The notes under the pieces are model-generated. The model was not told where the DNA came from. It made no database searches and saw only the letters and a program-made list of their open reading frames with translations. Positions 18,172 to 49,976 of a stretch of DNA of 50,517 bases are shown here, in pieces. The stretch spans positions 4,216,651-4,267,167 of the forward strand of contig CP070651.1 of NCBI GenBank assembly GCA_020354625.1. Reading direction: 5' to 3'. Positions within the stretch are counted from its first letter, which is position 1. The number at the start of each line of letters is the position of its first letter. This DNA comes from Trueperaceae bacterium. Its GTDB lineage: Bacteria > Deinococcota > Deinococci > Deinococcales > Trueperaceae. The position numbers and the translations under genes are program-made.

Positions 18172-18305
18172 TTCCCTGTGACGAACGTGGTGGTAACACG
18201 TTCCGTTATACCGCGGTCTTCTCGGCATGTGTGAGCGAGACGACACGAACCTGTCTGGGTTACCGACTCGGTGTGAGTTGTAGGTCGGTAAGGTATGTTA
18301 AGGCC

Positions 18306-18403
18306 GTTGCCAAAATTATGTAAGCAGGTATCATCCAAGAAACGGGTTACAGGACAGGTTTTCACCCACTGACTTTGTCTATGACCAGATGATACCTGCT
18401 TTA
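18306..18403. repeat. R1 interspersed element, copy 1
   Basis: This 98-bp sequence is repeated at 49879-49976 with only four mismatches. Its ends contain perfect 14-bp inverted repeats, AAGCAGGTATCATC (18322-18335) and GATGATACCTGCTT (18388-18401). There is no ORF. It lies 6 bp beyond the 3' end of the UspA gene. Size, inverted ends and dispersal suggest a MITE- or REPIN-like non-autonomous element. Confidence 0.88.
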
Positions 18404-39645: not shown

Positions 39646-39855
39646 ATGACGACACCTTGGTATCTATTCCCATTCGTAGGTCTTTGGTTGCTTATGGCGG
39701 CCATCTTGACCTTGACGGGCCGATTGATCGGGATCGTGGTGGGCTTGACGGTTATTGCGATCGGGTTGGCGTTTTCCCTAACGATGATTGGGGCAGTGGT
39801 GGGTGTGCCCGTGGCCCTGCTGGGCTTGCTGCTTATTACGCGCAGCCTTTTCTAA
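39646..39855 (+). CDS. Small two-helix membrane protein
   Basis: The 69-residue protein starts at ATG 39646 (MTTPWYLFPF) behind AAGGTAGG. It is almost wholly hydrophobic, with two helices (~6-30 and ~32-65) separated by a GRL turn. No family is recognised. Its TAA stop (39853-39855) lies inside the inverted end of an R2 element that begins at 39850, so the last Phe and the stop are both encoded by the element's TTCTAA. The next gene downstream on this strand is another small membrane protein. It diverges from sqr. Confidence 0.6.
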   Translation: MTTPWYLFPFVGLWLLMAAILTLTGRLIGIVVGLTVIAIGLAFSLTMIGAVVGVPVALLGLLLITRSLF

Positions 39856-39959
39856 ACCGTCTTTCGGTGATCTTGGCACTGCCAAGATCACCCGAGCAGA
39901 GCGAGGTTAAGCAAATGCGTTCAGTTTGCGTGACAAGTGCACTGAAAGCCGGTTTAGAA
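39850..39959. repeat. R2 element, copy A (complete)
   Basis: This 110-bp element has inverted ends TTCTAAACCGTCTTTCGGTG (left) and, complemented, TTCTAAACCGGCTTTCAGTG (right). An internal hairpin with arms TGATCTTGGCA and TGCCAAGATCA (39869-39891) adjoins the left end. It is ~90% identical by eye to the copy at 46303-46408. It supplies the stop codon of the upstream gene. Confidence 0.9.
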
Positions 39960-43135: not shown

Positions 43136-43224
43136 TATGACTTTGTCTACGACCAGATGATCCCTGCTAGATTGGCTCTGATCAATCGATCTTGGCAGCG
43201 CCAAGATCACCGAAAGCTGGGTTA
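43136..43224. repeat. Composite of a half R1 and a half R2 element (R2 copy D)
   Basis: Bases 43138-43169 match the right half of R1 (GACTTTGTCTACGACCAGAT, then TCCCTGCT). Immediately after, 43178-43224 match, in reverse, the left half of R2: TAACCCAGCTTTCGGTGATC followed by the TTGGCGCTGCCAAGATC hairpin. The TAA of the R2 end is the stop codon of the VOC gene. It lies between two convergent genes. Confidence 0.82.
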
Positions 43225-44004
43225 GGGCTGGTTGGTAGAAATCACCGCGAAGGTTCCCCCATGAGGATCGCTGAGGACGCTGAAGCGCCCAACGGGGATA
43301 TCTTGTGGCTCCACAGTCACCTTACCACCCAGCGCTTGTACCTTCTGGGCAACAGCATCGACGTCATCCACCGAGAAGTATGTCAACCAATGTGGGGGTA
43401 GGTTCTCCGGCCAGGTCTCGTCCATCTCGACCATGCCGCCGTTCGGGTGGTCGCCATCGAGAAAGATTCCGGTGTAGAGGGTGCCATCACCGACGTCACC
43501 GGCCTGAACCTTCCAGCCGAGCAACTGTTCGAAAAAGCCTTTGGCGGAGGTCACATTACGGGTGGCGAGTTCGTTCCAGGTCATCGCCCCAGGTTCGTTG
43601 AAGATCTCGGCACCGTCGTGATTCCCTGTTTGCCACAGAGCTACCGCTGCACCGGTCGGATCTTGAATGAGCGCCATGCGTCCGGCATCCATGACGTCCA
43701 TCGGCTGCACGGCAACGGTTCCGCCCAGCTCTCGGACCCGAGCCGTGATGTTGTCGACGTCGCCGACCGTGATATACGAGGTCCACATCGCCGGTAACCC
43801 TTTCATGGATTCGGGTTGTGGGCCCAGCCCGGCAACGGTCTTGCCGTCCTTTTGGAACATGGTGTAGGTGTTTTGCCCTCCTGCCTCGACATCGATCGCA
43901 TTCCAGCTGAACAATTCACAGTAAAACGCCTTGGCGTCGGCCTGATTGGGACTGTTGACATCGGCCCAGGTGAACATACCTTCGCATTTTTGGACTTCCG
44001 GCAT
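43222..44004 (-). CDS. Two-domain VOC (glyoxalase/bleomycin-resistance) family protein
   Basis: The 260-residue protein contains two VOC modules, residues ~5-125 (FTWADVNSPNQADAKAFYCELFSW...DPTGAAVALWQ) and ~138-258 (MTWNELATRNVTSAKGFFEQLLGW...DPHGGTFAVIS). Each has the typical first strand, the AKxFY/F helix and the final DPxG hairpin. Enzymes of this superfamily bind a metal between paired modules; the ligands are not clear enough here to predict glyoxalase I activity. Many such tandem proteins are annotated only as hydroxylase- or glyoxalase-like. The stop codon TAA (43222-43224) is part of an R2 half element. Confidence 0.9.
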   Translation of the reverse strand: MPEVQKCEGMFTWADVNSPNQADAKAFYCELFSWNAIDVEAGGQNTYTMFQKDGKTVAGLGPQPESMKGLPAMWTSYITVGDVDNITARVRELGGTVAVQPMDVMDAGRMALIQDPTGAAVALWQTGNHDGAEIFNEPGAMTWNELATRNVTSAKGFFEQLLGWKVQAGDVGDGTLYTGIFLDGDHPNGGMVEMDETWPENLPPHWLTYFSVDDVDAVAQKVQALGGKVTVEPQDIPVGRFSVLSDPHGGTFAVISTNQP

Positions 44005-44211: not shown

Positions 44212-44310
44212 TCGATCAAACCGGCTTTCGGCGATATCGGCAACCCGAGAAGAGAGGGCAAAAAAGAGACCTTCAGTCGGCGCGATACGTGGGGTGAAGG
44301 CTGGTTTAGA
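44212..44310. repeat. R2 element, copy C (diverged)
   Basis: The ends TCAAACCGGCTTTCGGCGAT (left) and, complemented, TTCTAAACCAGCCTTCACC (right) match the R2 termini, but the middle differs and the internal hairpin is lost (GCGATATCGGCAACC remains). The right end supplies the TAA stop and last Phe codon of the beta-barrel gene. On the minus strand a CTCTTTTTTG run lies within it. The flanking 44005-44211 shows no gene. Confidence 0.7.
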
Positions 44311-45532
44311 ACGCGAAGCCGAGCGACGTCCGTAGCTGCGAATTGCTCCTGAAAGACCCCAGCCTACTCTCTTCTGGGCCGAAAAAGAAGCTTCCAGACA
44401 GCTCTCCCGTGACGCCGTCGGCAAAGGTATAAGATGCTCTTGGCGCGATCAACCCGCCCCCATCGAAGCCTTGGAACCAGGCGCCCTCGAGACTGAGTCT
44501 TGCGCTCGCGGAATACGTGGCGGTAGCGAGCACGCTAAAGGCCAGGTCTGCCTGTTCCCCGTCGTCACCGCGGGCGTAGTCGAAGTTGCCCTGGAAGATG
44601 GTGGTGACGTCTCCGAAACGGTACTCGGTTCCCAGCACCGCATTGAACGACGGGTTGCCGACAGCAGGATCGGTTCCGCCCGGATCCTTGGTGAAGGTGT
44701 AACCGGCCTCGCCCCGCAGTACGGTGTCGCCGATACCGACCGAGAAATCGACCGCGATCAGTTGGTAGTGGTCGTAGTTCAGGATCGGTTGGACCGTGAT
44801 CTCTTGCTCACCTATGAATTCTGCGGTCACGGTCGGTGTGGTCTCGATCCCGCTGAAGTAGACGATGCTCGCATCTGCGCCCTTGAGTAGATTCAGGCGG
44901 TAGGTTGCCCGCGCGCCGAACTGCACGTTGGCAAACTCTGCGGCCGGCAGGTTGTCCCGTGGCGGGTTCTGCCCTACGATGGTCGTCCCTTCCGGTGGGA
45001 TGATCGGCGGCGTGTCGATCTGCCAGATGCTCGCCGGCTGGGTCGAGGCGCGAAAGGCGGGGATCACCACCGCGTCTACTTTGAGACCGCCAGGCCCATT
45101 GTAGATGGCGCGCAAAAGGGGGAGCGGAAGCTTCTCGCCCGCGAAGGGGTTGCGCAGATCGTCGGGGTTCACCACGTCCACGATGTTCAGTGCGTCCGCA
45201 GATCCCCAAGACACGGTCTGCTGTCCGATCAGGAGGTCGAAGTCACCGACGAACAGGGTCGCAAACGCGTCACGTAGCTCGACAGCCATCTCTCCACGGA
45301 CCGCATCGAAGCGGGCGCGCAAGGTGGCGTCGAAAGCGGCGTCGGGGAAGAAGCCCGAGCCCACCTCTCCGCTCAACGTGAGATCGAAGATGGTGAGGGA
45401 GTCCACCGGCGCGTGATCGCGAAAGACGACGCCGAAATCGGTGCGGATCTCGCCCCCTAGATCGAGATCGACTTGGGCATAGGCCGCACCTAGGATCAGG
45501 GCGAAGAGGATGAGAGCAAGGCGCATCGTCAC
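44306..45532 (-). CDS. DUF1302-like outer-membrane beta-barrel protein
   Basis: The 408-residue protein starts at GTG 45532, overlapping the previous stop (GTGA); ATG 45526 is possible. A signal peptide (MRLALILFALILGAAYAQ) precedes a beta-rich protein of alternating strands ending in Phe, the usual beta-barrel assembly signal. LLIGQQTVSWGSADALNIVDVVNPDDLRN is characteristic of DUF1302-type proteins. It is the last gene of the operon MMPL exporter / LolA-like / barrel, an arrangement proposed elsewhere for lipid or hydrophobic-compound export to the outer membrane. The final Phe and TAA stop are encoded within an R2 element end. Confidence 0.85.
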   Translation of the reverse strand: MTMRLALILFALILGAAYAQVDLDLGGEIRTDFGVVFRDHAPVDSLTIFDLTLSGEVGSGFFPDAAFDATLRARFDAVRGEMAVELRDAFATLFVGDFDLLIGQQTVSWGSADALNIVDVVNPDDLRNPFAGEKLPLPLLRAIYNGPGGLKVDAVVIPAFRASTQPASIWQIDTPPIIPPEGTTIVGQNPPRDNLPAAEFANVQFGARATYRLNLLKGADASIVYFSGIETTPTVTAEFIGEQEITVQPILNYDHYQLIAVDFSVGIGDTVLRGEAGYTFTKDPGGTDPAVGNPSFNAVLGTEYRFGDVTTIFQGNFDYARGDDGEQADLAFSVLATATYSASARLSLEGAWFQGFDGGGLIAPRASYTFADGVTGELSGSFFFGPEESRLGSFRSNSQLRTSLGFAF

Positions 45533-46275
45533 CGCCGCAGGAAGCGTTCGCTAAAGACCTCATCCGGGATCGGCTCGTCCACGGTGTAGCCGCTCTGTTG
45601 GATTTCGGTGAAGGACCCTGTACCGACGGTCTCCATCTTCATCGCTGCTGGGATACGGTAGCCACCCACCTCTGCGATCTCTGAGATGGTCATGATTTTG
45701 AAGAGTTCACCCGCTTTGTAGAACTCAGAACGCGTTGGGATCAGTTCGGCTTCGGGGATCTCGTAGACGATCCTTTCGTATTGGGTGGAGGTCGCTTCTT
45801 TGGGGGTTACCTCGACGATATAGAGGGGTCCGTCCCGGATCTCGAGCAGGACGGATTCCCACTCTTCGCGTTCGATTCCTCCGATGTCCTCATAGGTGAA
45901 ATCGGAGCCGAAAAAGGAACCATCTTGATCGTCTCCACTGGTGGCGATCCGGCGCACGCGTCCCAAGGCAGGGAGCCACAAGAGGCTCTCTTCACTGCCG
46001 TCACTCTGTTCGATGGTCAGGAAGCCCGACCCTTCGATATCGGGGGGGGCAGTGAACTTGATATTCTGTTTTTCCTCTCCGAGCGACCAGGTCTGCATCT
46101 GGCGGCTCAGCGTCTGCCCCGAACCGCTGGTGATCTTCATGGTCGTGGTGGTGATGCTGGTGTCGGGGCTCGCTTGGGCGTCCATCGCGTCCATGACCTC
46201 GTCTGCGGTGTTGTACATCTGTGCGAGTCCAAAGCTTGCGAGGAAGGTCGCGAGCACGATCGAGAGTCGTTTCAT
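45529..46275 (-). CDS. Outer-membrane lipoprotein-sorting-like protein (LolA-like fold)
   Basis: The 248-residue protein starts at ATG 46275 behind AGAAAGGA. A signal peptide (MKRLSIVLATFLASFGLAQ) is followed by a single LolA-like half-barrel: TTTTMKITSGSGQTLSRQMQ, the NIKFTAPPDIEGSGFL strand pair, SLLWLPALGRVRRIA, and the FGSDFTYEDIGG motif seen in COG2834-type proteins encoded beside MMPL exporters. It is likely a periplasmic carrier that passes a hydrophobic cargo from the MMPL protein to the outer-membrane barrel. An R2 element separates it from the MMPL gene. Confidence 0.9.
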   Translation of the reverse strand: MKRLSIVLATFLASFGLAQMYNTADEVMDAMDAQASPDTSITTTTMKITSGSGQTLSRQMQTWSLGEEKQNIKFTAPPDIEGSGFLTIEQSDGSEESLLWLPALGRVRRIATSGDDQDGSFFGSDFTYEDIGGIEREEWESVLLEIRDGPLYIVEVTPKEATSTQYERIVYEIPEAELIPTRSEFYKAGELFKIMTISEIAEVGGYRIPAAMKMETVGTGSFTEIQQSGYTVDEPIPDEVFSERFLRR

Positions 46276-46302
46276 ATGTGGATCCTTTCTAAAAAGGGGG
46301 GA

Positions 46303-46408
46303 TTAGACCGTCTTTCGGTGATCTTGGCACTGCCAAGATCAATTGATCAGAGCGAGGTTAAGCAAAAGCGTTCAGTTAGCGTGACAAGTGCACTGAAAGC
46401 CGGTTTAG
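46303..46408. repeat. R2 element, copy B, inside the MMPL operon
   Basis: It begins TTAGACCGTCTTTCGGTG and ends GTGCACTGAAAGCCGGTTTA. It has the same internal hairpin as copy A (TGATCTTGGCA/TGCCAAGATCA) and the shared GAGCGAGGTTAAGCAAA core. The right end supplies the TAA stop (46405-46407) of the MMPL gene. The element lies between the first and second genes of the operon, so it is transcribed within the message. Confidence 0.9.
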
Positions 46409-48693
46409 GCATTGGTGGTGACCTCACGGTTCACGTCCTGGGTGGTGCGGTCGAGCCGGATCCGTGGATTGCGCAAAAAGGTGAGGCAGGCGGCGGGCAA
46501 GAGCGTGAGCGAGGCGACCCCGACCGACACGACCGTGATCACCATGAGCCTGCCGAGCGCCTGGATGGGCAGCAGGCTGCCGAGCATCAAGGGGGCGAAA
46601 CCGGCGCCGAGCGTGAGCGCAGTAAAGAAGATCGCCCGTCCCGTGGAGACGAGTGTTTCGCTCATGGCCTCTTCCGGCTCGAGGCCGTTGCGGCGCTCTT
46701 CCATATAGCGCACCGTGAGGTGAATGGCGTAGTCTCCCACGCCGATGGCGAGCGCTCCCATCACCATGGTGGCGAGATCCAAGTCGATGCCGAAAAAGCC
46801 CAGGATGCCGTATTGCAGTGCGATGGTGATGAGCAGGGCGAGGATCGTGACGATGGCAGCTCGTACGGAGCGCACCATGCTGTCGATTGCGATCACGAGC
46901 AGGATGGCGAGCGTAAGGCTCACCACGAAGTCGCGTTTGATGGCATCTTCGCCCACGAGGTTCTCTAGCGCCGTGCCGGTAAAGTCGAGTTTGGCTTCTC
47001 CGGCGAACACGTCATCGGCCAGGCCTTCCAACTCGGCGAGCATTTCGCGGGTCCGATTGGTGGAGACGAACTTGGCATTGACGTTCAAGAGTCCCTGAGT
47101 GCTGTCGAGCGTCATAAGGGAGGTAAGGTCGCTCACGTCGGAAGCGCTCATCTGGTAGAGCAGCAACTCCTGGGCAACCGCTTCCCGGGTAGTCGGCATC
47201 CCGGCCTCGAGCGCCAGGACCTCATGGAGGTTGCGAACGATGGAGGCGATCGAGGTGGAGCTGCCGATCCCGTCGATCTCCTTGGCCCTCTCTTGAAACT
47301 CGATCATGTCGCTGAGCAGCTCGGGATCGGCCAGGTCGCCGGTAATACGGATCTGGAACTGGTTTGCGCCGCCGAAGACCTCATCGATGATGAGGGCGCT
47401 TTCGCGTATGGTGGTGCCCTCGGGCAAGAAGTCGATAAAGTTGGAGTTCGGCACGATGCGGGTGGCGCCGATGACAGCGATGATGGCGATCATGGCCGAT
47501 GCCAGGAGAATGGGGATACGGTGACGTGCCACTCCCTTGGCCAGCCAGCGCAAAAGGACGTCGATAGGTCCGTGCTCGCCACCCTTTGCGAGTCGCTTTG
47601 GGCTGGGCAGGAGCTTGAGCAGCGCGGGCAGGAGCATGAGCGAAGCAAACAGACCGGAAATGACACCGAGTGCGGTTTGCAGGCCGAGACCCCGAATTGC
47701 GGAGATGTCGGAGAAGAGGAAGGTGCACATGGCGGCCGAGATCGCCAACCCCGAGATCAGCACGCCCAAGCCGGTTTCGGCCACGGTGAGCCGAATCGCC
47801 TCTGTTTTTGCGACCCCTCTCACGAGCTCGTAATAGTACCGGCCCAACAAGTGGAGGGAGAACGAGCTGCCCACAGCGAGGATGGCAACGGGAGCGATCA
47901 CCGCGAAGTTGGAGATTTTAAGACCCAAGAGGCCGAGGCCACCCAAAGACCAGAGCACGCCGATCAGGACCGTGATAAGCGGTAAGACGGCACCCTGGAT
48001 GGTGCGGAAGTTGAGAAACAGAAAGATCAGGATCAGGAGGGCGGAGACGAGGGTCAACAGCGAAAAATCGCGCCGGATCATCCTTTCGAACTCGACCCCG
48101 GTGATCGTGTCTCCCGAAAGGTAATAGGTTCCCGGCCAATGTTCGTCGAAAGTGGCGTGTAGTTCGTCGGAGAGCGTGGCGTCGTCTGTGTTCACCTCGC
48201 TTAGTTCGATCAGGAGCGCCGTGTAGCGCCCATCTTTGCTAAACAGTCCCGAATCCCGGTACATGTAAGCAGAGTCGAGATAGCTGCGGATGTCTGCGAC
48301 GGTCTCTTTTGTGAGGTCGCCTGCCGGGATCAAGTCGTCGATAACCAGAAAACCGTCGTCCTCTTCCATGCGGGCAGCGTTGGCCAGGCTGGTCACGCTG
48401 TCGACGCTCTCGAGCCGCTCGAGCTGAGTTGTCAGGGTGCGCACATGCTCGAAGGCCTCGGGTGTGAAAATGTCTCCCTCGACCAGCGCGTAGGTGATTT
48501 CTGCCCCCGTGCCGAAGGTCTTTTTGATCTCCGTGTCGAGGGCTTCGTAGGGCGAGGTATCGGGGAGACCGCTCGAGGTAGAGTTGTCGAGCTCGAGGCG
48601 CGACAGGCCGAGACCAAAGAGAGCCGTCAGCAGGATGAAGAGGGCGATGACCAACCGGGGGCGGTCGGTGGTGACGTTAGCAAGCCACTGCAT
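46405..48693 (-). CDS. MMPL/RND-superfamily exporter
   Basis: ATG 48693 (MQWLANV) follows GAGGAG; an upstream ATG at 48717 is not supported. The 762-residue protein has the RND layout twice: a first helix (~18-38), an extracytoplasmic loop of ~170 residues, a cluster of five helices, then the same again. IGVGDYAIHLTVRYMEER in the second half is the characteristic helix 10 region of MMPL proteins. It is a proton-driven inner-membrane transporter, probably for lipids or other hydrophobic molecules, working with the LolA-like and barrel proteins that follow. A strong promoter with a TetR-style operator lies ~270 bp upstream. The TAA stop lies in an R2 element. Confidence 0.93.
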   Translation of the reverse strand: MQWLANVTTDRPRLVIALFILLTALFGLGLSRLELDNSTSSGLPDTSPYEALDTEIKKTFGTGAEITYALVEGDIFTPEAFEHVRTLTTQLERLESVDSVTSLANAARMEEDDGFLVIDDLIPAGDLTKETVADIRSYLDSAYMYRDSGLFSKDGRYTALLIELSEVNTDDATLSDELHATFDEHWPGTYYLSGDTITGVEFERMIRRDFSLLTLVSALLILIFLFLNFRTIQGAVLPLITVLIGVLWSLGGLGLLGLKISNFAVIAPVAILAVGSSFSLHLLGRYYYELVRGVAKTEAIRLTVAETGLGVLISGLAISAAMCTFLFSDISAIRGLGLQTALGVISGLFASLMLLPALLKLLPSPKRLAKGGEHGPIDVLLRWLAKGVARHRIPILLASAMIAIIAVIGATRIVPNSNFIDFLPEGTTIRESALIIDEVFGGANQFQIRITGDLADPELLSDMIEFQERAKEIDGIGSSTSIASIVRNLHEVLALEAGMPTTREAVAQELLLYQMSASDVSDLTSLMTLDSTQGLLNVNAKFVSTNRTREMLAELEGLADDVFAGEAKLDFTGTALENLVGEDAIKRDFVVSLTLAILLVIAIDSMVRSVRAAIVTILALLITIALQYGILGFFGIDLDLATMVMGALAIGVGDYAIHLTVRYMEERRNGLEPEEAMSETLVSTGRAIFFTALTLGAGFAPLMLGSLLPIQALGRLMVITVVSVGVASLTLLPAACLTFLRNPRIRLDRTTQDVNREVTTNA

Positions 48694-48946
48694 AGGTCTC
48701 CTCGGTCGCGGGCGCATCGGGCGTTAGGGGGGGGAGGAGCGCGGACGTCGGTTGTGGACGGTTGCCAAGAGCAGGCAGAGTTCCCCGTTCATCTGATATC
48801 TTTCCGCTCGGCCCGAGTCGTTGGAGGCCTCTCAAACCTGCAGAGGAGGTTCTTGGCTGTCTCATGGCGTCTCTCCCTTTCGTTTCCGGTGAGTAGATCT
48901 TCTTCGACTGTTCCGATTGCCGGGGGCTTTCGCTTCCGACGATGGT

Positions 48947-49781: not shown

Positions 49782-49878
49782 AAAAACGAAAAGGAGATCT
49801 TCGCAGCGAGGTTGCGGATGTCAATTAAATCCGATCGGTGATCTGACGAGATAAATACTCTGTCTTCTGATTAAATCG

Positions 49879-49976
49879 GTTGCCATAGTTATGTAAGCAG
49901 GTATCATCCAAGAAACGGGCTACAGGACAGGTTTTCACCCACTGACTTCGTCTATGACCAGATGATACCTGCTTTA
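49879..49976. repeat. R1 interspersed element, copy 2
   Basis: This 98-bp copy matches 18306-18403 at 94 of 98 positions by eye, including both perfect 14-bp inverted ends (AAGCAGGTATCATC, GATGATACCTGCTT). It lies between the small membrane protein gene and the 3' end of the DinB-family gene. Confidence 0.88.

Follow-up and report, generated by a model that had tools for sequence, protein, structure and literature searches.

What is a structured 106-base repeat doing between the first two genes of an operon? The repeat occupies positions 46303-46408 of the window, by which we mean the whole 50,517-nucleotide stretch of Trueperaceae DNA analyzed here, located near one end of a genome represented by a single contig (G000) of 4,285,982 bases (~4.29 Mb). 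An earlier note had given its coordinates correctly and had proposed that it could be a processing or stability element like REP/BIME sequences or terminate part of the transcription; the repeat is 93% identical to a second copy at 39852-39957. Absent from that note were the roughly 30 additional copies that the genome contains and the position of a terminal TA within the stop codon of the upstream gene. We refer to the family as R2, to the copy at the junction as copy B, and to the second copy as copy A. The relevant features are as follows.

46405..48717, minus strand: MMPL-family transporter gene (PF03176), stop codon within the element end
46303..46408, plus strand: R2 element copy B, MITE-like repeat, in the same register as other genomic copies
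46303..46320, plus strand: left terminal inverted repeat (sequence read, pairs counted)
46304..46305, unstranded: left terminal TA, putative target duplication; YTA...TAR at nearly all full copies
46319..46341, plus strand: 11-bp perfect hairpin (sequence, folding, and compensatory changes)
46345..46359, plus strand: family core position, CGAGCAGAGCGAGTA or -GTT in most copies, GATCAGAGCGAGGTT in copy B
46391..46408, plus strand: right terminal inverted repeat (sequence read, pairs counted)
46406..46407, unstranded: right terminal TA, which with 46405 makes the TAA stop codon of the MMPL gene on the minus strand
46276..46302, minus strand: 27-bp spacer from the element to the LolA-like start codon, with the ribosome-binding sequence AGAAAGGA
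45529..46275, minus strand: LolA_like outer-membrane lipoprotein-sorting protein gene (PF17131)
44306..45532, minus strand: DUF1302 protein gene, overlapping the LolA-like gene by 4 nt
39852..39957, plus strand: R2 element copy A (repeat comparison, genome search)
43175..43225, minus strand: third R2 copy, left half, joined to a piece of the end of R1, another repeat family (about 43140-43170)

Elsewhere in the window, a c-di-GMP-II riboswitch aptamer barely above the Rfam cut-off was found at 1191-1272, and tandem 54-bp repeats (TNPDTDGDGLLDGVDPDP-like in frame 1) and pentapeptide-like coding repeats occupy 1-108 and 385-790.

The R2 element is about 105 bp long. Its consensus, CTAAACCGTCTTTCGGTGATCTTGGCAnTGCCAAGATCACCCGAGCAGAGCGAGGTTAAGCAAAnGCGTTCAGTTAGCGTGACAAGTGCACTGAAAGCCGGTTTAG, is bounded by inverted ends; immediately inward of the left one comes a 12-bp hairpin, and most of the middle is unpaired. 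The hairpin of copy B, TGATCTTGGCA-C-TGCCAAGATCA, has its arms at 46319-46329 and 46331-46341; described previously as a near-perfect 11-bp hairpin, it is in fact perfect. Inverted ends of ~20 bp had also been reported and are present, with 14 of 18 positions pairing between 46303-46320 and 46391-46408, an imperfect match.

On the minus strand, the MMPL, LolA_like, and DUF1302 protein genes follow one another in succession, and the placement of copy B between the first two as operon genes was borne out by 16 relatives in which they are adjacent. In 15 of these the two genes overlap by 4 to 14 nt (one junction, L062, was scored with a GTG start) and in one they are separated by 17 nt, whereas here they lie 129 nt apart; the extra length is therefore the element. 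Downstream, the LolA-like and DUF1302 genes share a 4-nt overlap in the window, so the operon otherwise seems undisturbed. The 3' end of the MMPL gene reads ...ACC ACC AAT GCC TAA, with the TAA supplied by the terminal TTA of the element. Removing the element and one TA on paper gives GCC TAA TCC CCC CTT TTT AGA AAG GAT CCA CAT ATG, in which the identical stop codon is kept and 27 bases lead to the LolA-like start, preceded by AGAAAGGA, a likely ribosome-binding site. The nearest relatives in the data are ~50% identical in protein, and there is no true close-strain empty site among them.

The R2 family comprises about 30 to 40 copies in the genome: a sequence search recovered about 30, at 74 to 97% identity, and a covariance model built from 29 copies found 44 places, a few of which are reverse-strand matches to the palindrome. 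The ends follow the pattern YTAAACCG...CGGTTTAR. Both end positions could be read in 25 of 28 near-full copies; in 24 of these, Y precedes the left TA and R follows the right one, with the targets distributed as TTAG (8), CTAG (7), CTAA (5), TTAA (4), and a single ATAA. This pattern is what one would expect, judging from the sequences of the ends, if the element had entered a palindromic YTAR site and duplicated its TA. A 4-base target duplication was considered and did not fit, as the A and T on the inner side do not vary, while the outer bases at one end are not those at the other. At four loci (L013, L014, L018, and L023) R1 and R2 abut with a single TA in common; this shared TA and the TA on both sides of R2 would fit the putative target duplication. 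R2 is short, non-coding, multi-copy, and dispersed, with TA-ended terminal inverted repeats, as are MITEs of the TA type. Its copies have diverged by several percent, and therefore the family is probably no longer moving. At L072:1610-1650 (G000 4163647, minus strand), a solitary R2-type left end precedes a perfect hairpin of another sequence, GGTGAAG..CTTCACC; it may be what is left of a further subfamily in this genome.

The position of R2 copies relative to genes was compared with a background drawn from 444 kb of the genome, in which genes were called by codon usage with the window as training sequence. This background is 83% coding, has 1323 YTAR sites (755 coding, 486 intergenic, and 82 on stop codons), and has 54 convergent, 51 divergent, and 237 co-directional neighboring gene pairs. 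Only one of 28 R2 copies falls in a called gene (L009, at the 3' end of a read-through ORF), compared to 57% of YTAR sites that are coding. Eight or nine of the 28 coincide with a stop codon, where non-coding YTAR sites would lead one to expect 14.4% (binomial P of 0.014 with nine, a count that includes the short ORF of L008), and at L002 there are stop codons at both sides of the element; in relatives, a long ORF likewise terminates at five or six of 29 copies. The excess is modest, about twofold with P near 0.01, and results from target choice plus selection against damage; a special targeting of stop codons beyond YTAR is not needed for an enrichment of this size. R2 was found between convergent genes in 9 of 26 cases (16% in the background, P of 0.015) and between divergent genes in two. 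Four copies, L001, L004, L007, and L026, copy B being one of them, occupy gaps of less than 200 nt between co-directional genes. Copies within co-directional pairs run with the genes in nine cases and against them in six, which does not hint at an RNA function tied to one strand.

The second family, R1, is unrelated to R2, ~106 bp long with TA at its ends, and present in at least 40 genomic copies, including 18298-18403 and 49871-49976 in the window. It lies on stop codons in 12 of 40 cases, always by its right end (the YTAR baseline being only approximate for R1), and between convergent genes in 19 of 40 (P of 2.6e-6).

A mobility partner was sought in the same genome, and neither a transposase with R2-matching ends, nor a DDE_3 / IS630 DDE domain, nor a long element flanked by R2 ends was found there; an IS630 profile matched only two weak N-terminal stretches. 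Solitary ends in the relative G012, which are of the G012 type, likewise had no long element or transposase beside them. DDE_Tnp_1 transposases were considered as partners by checking the ends of three, only one of which resembles R2. That one is a single element at L131:980-2690 (G000 about 300001-301710), with DUF4277 and DDE_Tnp_1 domains and inverted ends CCGTCTTTCCGACCCCCC resembling the start of R2, which we take to be IS1634-like. It shares 12 bp, AAACCGTCTTTC, with the R2 left end, at one end only, and its own ends lack TA; the candidate was rejected. Since a partner may have been lost and none was found, R2 is filed as MITE-like.

Together, these results make it very probable that copy B is a non-autonomous, TA-targeting, MITE-like mobile repeat that inserted in the YTAR of the MMPL stop codon, rebuilt the stop, and spaced the two genes apart. 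Moved by a DDE transposase that would since have gone missing, the element would have entered the YTAR at the MMPL end (GCC TAA on the minus strand) with duplication of the TA. Because the element begins with TAA on either strand, the stop codon would have been rebuilt, and neither the start of the LolA-like gene nor its ribosome-binding site would have been touched. The visible effect is that genes which overlap or nearly touch in relatives are here separated by 129 nt, with a structured mRNA spacer between them. RNA polymerase would most likely read through, with both proteins still made, but translational coupling at the MMPL/LolA-like junction would be lost.

Does the fold of the element give it a role in the message? 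A transcript across the junction would indeed carry the hairpin, as the earlier note had anticipated from a structured repeat inside an operon. The strong fold that it had predicted for the message applies to the plus strand of copy B (-38.9 kcal/mol, z of -4.35, matched by 0 of 200 shuffles) and considerably less to the minus strand, the strand of the mRNA (-29.2 kcal/mol, z of -2.80, 4 of 200 shuffles). Copy A, nearer to the consensus, folds well on both strands (z of about -5.5). The mRNA-strand fold of copy B is weaker because mutations in its left end give mismatches, and pairing has thus been partly lost on the strand that would be transcribed.

By analogy with other repeats, processing or stabilization of the message by R2, through RNase III or in a similar way, is possible: RNase III cuts Correia elements in mRNA (PMC3049150), and ERIC affects mRNA decay (PMC10969869). 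That copy B now serves as such an element, with RNase III-type cutting or an exonuclease block yielding unequal MMPL and LolA-like messages, nevertheless seems improbable to us. It could draw on the strong fold of copy B and on a hairpin retained via compensatory changes, but the fold is clearly poorer on the mRNA strand, both orientations are represented among the copies, most of which lie outside operons, and the same operon manages without the element in relatives. Termination or attenuation of transcription after the MMPL gene is highly improbable: a GC-containing hairpin does lie downstream of the stop codon, but no terminator-like site was detected within the element on either strand, and no U-run directly follows the hairpin on the minus strand. 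No promoter-like site was detected within the element either.

Insertion of a MITE-like repeat, the reading favored above, also has to accommodate what R2 looks like outside this genome. R2 was not found by BLAST in 60 relatives, and its exact 25-base end-plus-hairpin string was absent from genomes of other GTDB species; neither plasmids nor phages yielded R2, and the core patterns were not found in viral contigs, five matches there to an R2 17-mer being judged chance. The first covariance model identified 11 places in G012 and one in G013, and a model that included the G012 copies, run over 111 genomes of the phylum, found 23 in G012, 6 in G017, 3 in G001, and 2 in G013, with single weak matches in G010 (E of 0.006) and G049 (E of 0.002). 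The core pattern was also matched in JASBUK010000006.1, a Trueperaceae MAG. The same architecture thus recurs in other Trueperaceae. TA is retained at most ends of these copies and their hairpin remains nearly perfect, but the end and hairpin sequences are different: GGTGATCTTGGCA in the genome studied here is swapped for GGTGGTATTGACA in G012 and GGTTGGTTTGCA in G017. A 129-bp subfamily in G012 (L168-L175, 501-630) has an extra ~23 nt (TGCCGACGYAGTCGAGACTGAAT) inside an otherwise conserved core.

Several different stem sequences each pair with themselves. Across 41 aligned copies, 63 double-change cells were counted in 14 pairs, compared to at most 12 with the partners slid (because the structure guided the alignment and the G012 copies are interrelated, independent changes number fewer than 63), and the covariation score across genera was 0.244 versus at most 0.074. 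The signal within this genome alone is weak. The best-conserved part between genera is the short core CGAGYRGARCGAGTA, above the ends; identity in the MAFFT alignment (A4) falls from 76% in the 13-column core to 49% in the hairpin arms, 39% in the left end, and 28% in the right part. A MITE is expected to be most conserved at its ends. Conservation of the core above the ends is hence unusual for a MITE, with a core-binding protein and recognition of the folded strand as possible reasons.

These comparisons bear on whether the whole family is instead a mobile structured RNA, or forms an ssDNA structure for mobility, in which the hairpin and the core are recognised and the ends only pair. The covariation, the high identity of the core, and its tolerance of an insert in the G012 subfamily argue for this. 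It is nonetheless unlikely to be right, as the Rfam 15 covariance models gave no match to R2, TA-ended inverted repeats and YTAR targets are typical of DDE-type MITEs, and the copies show no strand bias relative to genes. A broader proposal, which we offer tentatively and as an outside chance, is that R2 belongs to a mobile repeat class centered on Trueperaceae and defined by a ~15-nt core that stays fixed and by having a perfect hairpin rather than by its end sequences; ends and hairpins would have been replaced between genera with pairing kept, which would point to recognition of folded RNA or ssDNA during mobility.

If copy B is a MITE-like insertion, it illustrates a harmless way into an operon, in which a YTAR-targeting element that starts with TAA can occupy and rebuild a stop codon. 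The R2 family, found in several genera with their own ends and a common core, offers a test case for MITE recognition without a transposase in the genome.

Among known systems, kinship with REP/BIME, suggested previously, is not upheld. Those are likewise dispersed extragenic hairpins, possible within operons, but they are short palindromes associated with Y1 (RAYT) transposases, and R2 is longer (~105 bp), with TA-ended inverted repeats, in a genome where a PF01797 search that matched its controls found no Y1 transposase. The Chunjie MITE of Geobacter uraniireducens is 178-235 bp long, as opposed to ~105 bp for R2. RUP of pneumococcus resembles R2 in its length of ~107 bp, its TA-bearing terminal inverted repeats, and its intergenic location (PMC3049150, PMC2229807, PMC10969869), as well as in being over-represented between convergent genes (PMC3049150) and clustering with other repeats. 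RUP differs in having ends in common with IS630-Spn1, whereas no partner IS was found for R2, and the likeness considered here is one of architecture; the cited descriptions of RUP mention no conserved core with an exchanged hairpin, unlike in the R2 family. Correia elements (NEMIS) of Neisseria share with R2 a short form of ~107 bp, TA ends, a stable RNA with paired ends, and possible location in transcribed regions (PMC2229807, PMC10969869); they differ in their 24-bp ends and in that RNase III cutting has been shown for them. Without claiming its membership in either family, we regard R2 as working like RUP or Correia elements.
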